In this document: positions 22,117 to 22,782 of the stretch, in pieces | Numbering within the stretch: the first letter of the stretch is position 1 | Layout: each line of letters begins with the position of its first letter | Assembly: GCF_000746025.2 (NCBI RefSeq) | Contig: NZ_CP045798.1 | Location: 1,226,501-1,290,500 of the forward strand | Reading direction: 5' to 3' | Length of the DNA: 64,000 nt | DNA from: Thermanaerosceptrum fracticalcis | GTDB lineage: Bacteria; Bacillota; Peptococcia; DRI-13 | Notes under the pieces: generated by a model | Seen by the model: the letters and a program-made list of their open reading frames with translations, nothing else | Told to the model about the DNA's origin: nothing | Databases searched by the model: none | Translations under genes and position numbers: made by a program

Positions 22117-22782
22117 CTAGAAACCTGCGGAAATCTCCTGTAATTTTTTTAAGTCTTTAATCAATAGTGTTCGCTGATTCACTCTTTCTAAAATCCCCGA
22201 TTTTCTCAGGTCATTTAAAAGAATTGAAACCGTTTGACGGGTAGCCCCCAACATCAGGGCAATTTCTTCAGTAGTTAAACCAAGCTCTAACTTGATTCCT
22301 TGTTGTACCGTTATACCTGTGTCCTTTGCAGCTTGAACTAAAAATTCCGCCAGTCTTAAGCGAGCGTCTTTAAAAACCAAACCATTAATTATGGTAATTG
22401 AGTTTTTTAGTAAATCCCCCAACACTTTAACCATAATCAAACCAAAAGCAGGTAACTCGGCAATAATCTTTTGGAAATTACGGACATCGGTAACCAATAT
22501 AGTTGTATCTTCCATTGCCTGGGTAAAGGCCCTGGTATGTGTACTGTATATATCACCAGCCTCCAAAATGGACAGGGTAAATTCCTTATCCTCATAAGCA
22601 AGATAAACCCTAACCTTCCCGGACTTTACTAAAAACACCAGGTTTTTCTCATCGTTCGGTGAAAAGAGTATTGCCTTTCTAGAAAACCGGTGTTCCTGAA
22701 ACTTTTCCAAGAACTTGTCATACTCCGGGGAACTCAGAGTTTCCAACAAGTCGATGTCTGTTAACCTCATTCTGGTTGGCAT
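22117..22782 (-). CDS. cooA: CO-sensing heme transcription factor CooA, Cys ligand replaced by Ser
   Basis: 221 residues, CRP/FNR family, very like CooA of Carboxydothermus across its length (for example KDARLRLAEFLVQAA and ERVNQRTLL). Pro2 follows Met1, as in the Rhodospirillum protein where it is the distal heme ligand. The heme stretch reads EAGDIYSTHTRAF: His82, the ferrous ligand, is kept, but position 80, Cys in characterised CooA proteins, is Ser (codon AGT). The HTH is near residues 168-190 (TTEEIALMLGATRQTVSILL). The GAGGGGG site fits the ATG at 22782. It lies next to cooC and cooM, its expected targets. Confidence 0.95.
   Translation of the reverse strand: MPTRMRLTDIDLLETLSSPEYDKFLEKFQEHRFSRKAILFSPNDEKNLVFLVKSGKVRVYLAYEDKEFTLSILEAGDIYSTHTRAFTQAMEDTTILVTDVRNFQKIIAELPAFGLIMVKVLGDLLKNSITIINGLVFKDARLRLAEFLVQAAKDTGITVQQGIKLELGLTTEEIALMLGATRQTVSILLNDLRKSGILERVNQRTLLIKDLKKLQEISAGF

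Follow-up and report, generated by a model that had tools for sequence, protein, structure and literature searches.

The stretch of DNA analysed here (the window; 64,000 nucleotides, 43% GC) comes from the genome of Thermanaerosceptrum fracticalcis, a single contig of 3,805,411 bp. On its minus strand, at 22117-22782, lies cooA, a gene for a 221-residue heme CO sensor of the CRP/FNR family and of the CooA-1 type. The gene is read from 22782 down to 22117, starts with ATG and has a strong ribosome-binding site (GAGAGGGGG). Its product scores above the cut-off for both Pfam PF00027 and PF13545, the cNMP-binding-like domain and the Crp-type HTH that make up the CRP fold, and CooA structures match it over its full length. 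A search of the host genome for a second CooA returned only one CRP relative, which is 27% identical and does not carry the heme-ligand motif (L002).

At this locus cooA stands at the head of a standard gene cluster for CO oxidation and a hydrogenase, with the minus-strand gene order cooA, cooC, cooM, cooK, cooL, cooX, cooU, cooH, hypA, cooF and cooS. Next to the sensor, cooC (21070-21873) encodes a MinD/ParA-type ATPase for CODH maturation that is 86% identical to its Carboxydothermus homologue. The energy-converting hydrogenase follows, beginning with cooM (17040-20834), whose product of 1264 residues is the large antiporter-like membrane subunit, and continuing with the NuoH-like cooK (16072-17037), the NuoB-like cooL (15625-16056), cooX for a ferredoxin-type Fe-S protein (15114-15659), the NuoC-like cooU (14553-15095) and cooH, the NuoD-like large subunit (13474-14556). 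Further along are a gene for a hypA-like Ni-insertion protein (13029-13505), cooF for an Fe-S electron transfer protein (12479-13042) and cooS for the catalytic subunit of an anaerobic Ni-Fe CO dehydrogenase (10545-12455; TIGR01702, 784 bits). The names cooX, cooU and hypA were given on position and sequence. Together with the family domains, the alignment to CooA structures and the boxes described below, this neighbourhood bears out the original prediction that the protein is a CooA.

Other elements lie in the same window. An IS701/IS4-type transposase gene (8072-9562) is found just downstream of cooS and of a gene for a small protein (9720-10223) that had no match in Pfam or NCBIfam. The genes for dissimilatory sulfite reductase, dsrAB, are also present and complete (52011-54334). 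Among the genomes sampled from the genus and order of the host, no close CooA was found, and the best matches belong to Carboxydocella, a member of another family. Horizontal transfer of the coo cluster is possible.

CooA recognises boxes of the consensus TGTCRN6YGACR (PMC6085454). Two predicted boxes match this consensus exactly, both read on the minus strand: TGTCGGCAAACCGACA upstream of cooC (22026-22041) and TGTCATCTTAGCGACA upstream of cooM (20918-20933). A -10-like hexamer starts 21 bp past each of them (TATAGT for cooC, TACACT for cooM), and because this spacing is common to both boxes, cooM may have a CooA promoter of its own, separate from that of cooC. The Carboxydocella promoter is near-identical, with 20 bp from box to hexamer. 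A 27-codon open reading frame between the first box and cooC was considered as a gene and rejected, as it shows no conservation in related loci. A third exact box (TGTCATGGAAGCGACA, minus strand, 24515-24530) overlaps the ATG of an aminotransferase gene (23357-24526, minus strand) upstream of cooA, where it may be a chance match or a repressor-like site. The pattern is palindromic, so the three sites count as six matches; shuffles gave a mean of 0.30, and none of 100 reached six. Only eight exact sites occur in the 3.8 Mb genome, three of them within 3.7 kb around cooA.

The heme-binding region of the protein differs from that of the best-known CooA. In Rhodospirillum rubrum CooA, Cys75 binds the ferric heme and is replaced by His77 upon reduction. 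The aligned residues of the window protein are Ser80 (codon AGT at 22543-22545, minus strand; ACT on the plus strand), which also aligns to Cys80 of Carboxydothermus hydrogenoformans CooA-1, and His82 (CAT, 22537-22539, minus strand), the equivalent of the proximal ligand His77. Codon 2 is CCA, so that the N-terminus (MPTRMRLTD) has proline at the place of the N-terminal heme ligand of CooA. The original prediction gave these three residues without a strand, and the minus-strand codons agree with it. It was equally right to suspect that the Cys/His switch is missing: position 80 is serine and the whole protein contains no cysteine at all, which makes a Cys-to-His switch of the R. rubrum type impossible and leaves no other residue to act as a thiolate ligand.

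In the window's phylum, 399 genomes chosen regardless of residue 80 were surveyed; of their 29 CooA-like proteins with the His82 motif (the window's own included), 26 have serine and the other three cysteine (L007, L008 and L017). L008 is the same match as one recorded for Carboxydothermus islandicus (L035), and L017 shares its genus code with L007. Another 69 loci, nearly all with serine, came from scanning genome contigs, but part of that scan used a pattern open only to Ser or Cys at this position, so the figure is no census. As a check free of motif bias, profile searches were run on 385, 369 and 395 genomes from three other groups, from which 14 clear CooA-like sequences were fetched: seven with serine, six with valine and one with cysteine. 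Aligned at positions 80 and 82, as the original prediction had proposed, the proteins have a constant His82 and a variable residue 80, with serine commonest, cysteine uncommon, and valine, alanine and threonine also present outside the window's phylum.

Some of these loci stand out in their own right. Six CooA-like proteins with valine in place of Ser80 (L136, L137, L139, L140, L141 and L110), five of them with a V-S-H motif, possibly form a separate subgroup. In Desulforamulus putei DSM 12395 (L059), cooA appears to be broken: a single frame covers residues 1-107 only, and the length of the match is not a multiple of three, pointing to a frameshift or an assembly error.

A misread base could in principle explain the serine, as the codons TGT (Cys) and AGT (Ser) are one base apart. 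However, the STHTR motif, and with it Ser80, recurs in the nearest homologues, which come from independent genomes and are 80-87% identical to the window protein. This makes a sequencing error at codon 80, which the original prediction had named as a possible refutation, extremely improbable.

The original prediction also treated cysteine as the rule, 'changed to Ser' in this protein. On that view, a recent substitution removed the redox gate, which may suit a strictly reduced cell. The protein indeed has no cysteine available as a ligand, and both R. rubrum and C. hydrogenoformans have one at this position. Nevertheless, the close relatives of the window CooA have serine, serine is common in its phylum, and other residues stand at position 80 elsewhere; across the surveys serine is the majority state and cysteine is sporadic. 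Nor does the proposed link to a strictly reduced cell find support, since serine occurs in aerobes and cysteine in a strict anaerobe. Ser80 proteins were found in Shewanella, Photobacterium, Azospirillum, Novosphingobium, Beijerinckia and Martelella, hosts that include aerobes, and Cys80 in Carboxydothermus, which is strictly anaerobic. A further point concerns the cysteine itself. That it binds the oxidised heme in characterised CooA proteins holds for R. rubrum; in C. hydrogenoformans, Cys80 is not reported as a ligand in the secondary source PMC6955866, where residue 2 and His82 are given that role. Recent loss of a gating cysteine is thus very unlikely, and the distribution of residue 80 largely refutes it.

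Phylogenetic evidence points the same way. In a quick, unrooted tree of 89 sequences, with R. rubrum CooA uncertainly placed, the seven cysteine-bearing sequences (R. rubrum, two Carboxydothermus CooA-1, L017, Desulfocurvus and two Vibrio) fall in five separate places and need five changes. The window CooA groups with Carboxydothermus and Carboxydocella CooA-1, in keeping with membership of this subgroup. This group has six members (SH-aLRT 95 in the quick tree): the window and Carboxydocella proteins, two more with serine, and the two Carboxydothermus proteins with cysteine, which are thus nested among mostly serine-bearing relatives. A Ser-to-Cys gain in Carboxydothermus would fit the unrooted tree. 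On balance, the Cys/His switch of R. rubrum seems somewhat more likely to be an exception than the rule: the usual CooA would carry serine (or valine, alanine or threonine) and use no thiolate ligation, with cysteine having arisen separately in several lineages. In that case, the CooA family as a whole would not share redox gating by ligand exchange.

The surroundings of Ser80 relatives suggest that they sense CO, on evidence that is indirect but consistent. A CooA box is present in the fetched flank of 46 of 76 Ser80 loci, compared with six when a backward pattern was used as the control, and when coo genes are counted as well as boxes, the fetched flanks of 74 of the 76 contain at least one. 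In Sporomusa, a box and an acetyl-CoA synthase gene come after a Ser80 cooA; in Beijerinckia mobilis, the box after the Ser80 cooA is followed by cowN (NF033689). In several Pseudomonadota (L093, L094, L096, L099 and L092), a CooA box after cooA is followed by a short gene for CowN or a CowN-like protein. The CowN family match was confirmed for L096, which has Ser80, and for L092, which has Cys80. A CowN neighbour provides a link to the shielding of nitrogen fixation from CO.

The gene therefore most likely encodes an ordinary CooA-1, of a kind already known, that works without a thiolate switch. There are good grounds for expecting that its heme is ligated by Pro2 and His82 in both redox states, that CO displaces Pro2 and thereby activates the coo operons, and that Ser80 is the usual residue rather than a lost ligand. 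The starting points are direct observations: the sequence, the gene neighbourhood, the boxes, the lack of cysteine and the distribution of residue 80. Which residues ligate the heme in either redox state, and how CO acts on it, are inferred from characterised homologues. The protein would act as a homodimer of the CRP family, each subunit carrying one heme b. In the absence of CO, the iron, whether ferric or ferrous, would be bound between His82 of one subunit and the Pro2 N-terminal amine of its partner, which would leave no place for a Cys-to-His exchange. On the ferrous heme, CO would then take the place of the Pro2 amine, setting the dimer free to bind the TGTCR-N6-YGACR boxes and activate cooC and the cooMKLXUH-hypA-cooFS operon, leading to H2-evolving CO oxidation.

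The homologue that provides this ligand set has Ala2 and Cys80, so with Pro2 and Ser80 the ferric state could differ, for instance by being five-coordinate or water-bound. Taken further, Ser80 proteins might have a ferric chemistry of their own, with a weak or five-coordinate ferric heme that gates by redox state without a thiolate; both characterised proteins compared carry a cysteine here (Cys80 or Cys75). Yet His82 is found in all close relatives and residue 2 is proline (or alanine or serine) in most, and their conservation counts against such a chemistry because a six-coordinate, nitrogen-ligated heme needs both. This alternative is considered improbable, if less so than recent loss of the cysteine.

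In summary, what the original prediction observed is correct and its interpretation is inverted: judged from the homologues surveyed, Ser80 is the common state and not a loss. Taking the R. rubrum cysteine as the family rule is a natural misreading, which is corrected here. Judging by the distribution of residue 80, CooA proteins in general should not be presumed to gate by redox-driven thiolate exchange, and a cysteine-free CooA-1 would make a clean test protein for this question.

Comparison with known systems places the window CooA closest to that of Carboxydocella thermautotrophica (L032, CP028514.1), which is 87% identical and likewise has Pro2, Ser80 and His82. In both, a CooA box and a -10-like hexamer lie downstream of cooA, but the box precedes a cooS-cooC operon in Carboxydocella and cooC in the window. 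The type strain of C. thermautotrophica is reported to grow exclusively via hydrogenogenic CO oxidation, and its coo operons are preceded by CooA boxes (PMC6085454). The closest characterised homologue is C. hydrogenoformans CooA-1, whose structure is solved (PDB 2FMY, 2HKX, 6CPB). It is 78% identical and shares His82 and the cooA-cooC-cooM order, but has Ala2 and Cys80 where the window protein has Pro2 and Ser80. According to the secondary source PMC6955866, its heme ligands are Ala2 and His82, which are not exchanged when the redox state changes, and activation of the Cys/His-exchange type is unique to R. rubrum CooA. Differences between the redox responses of these two proteins, including the axial-ligand swap, are also reported in PMC12937710. 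R. rubrum CooA (PDB 1FT9) has the family, the fold, the His77 equivalent and the N-terminal Pro2 ligand in common with the window protein, but its sequence is distant and it uses a Cys75 ligand in place of Ser80. Finally, CooA-2 is a related CO-sensing group that forms a clade separate from CooA-1 and is reported to respond to lower CO (PMC6557876); probable loci of this type, recognised by a GHTR motif, mostly have serine at position 80 as well.
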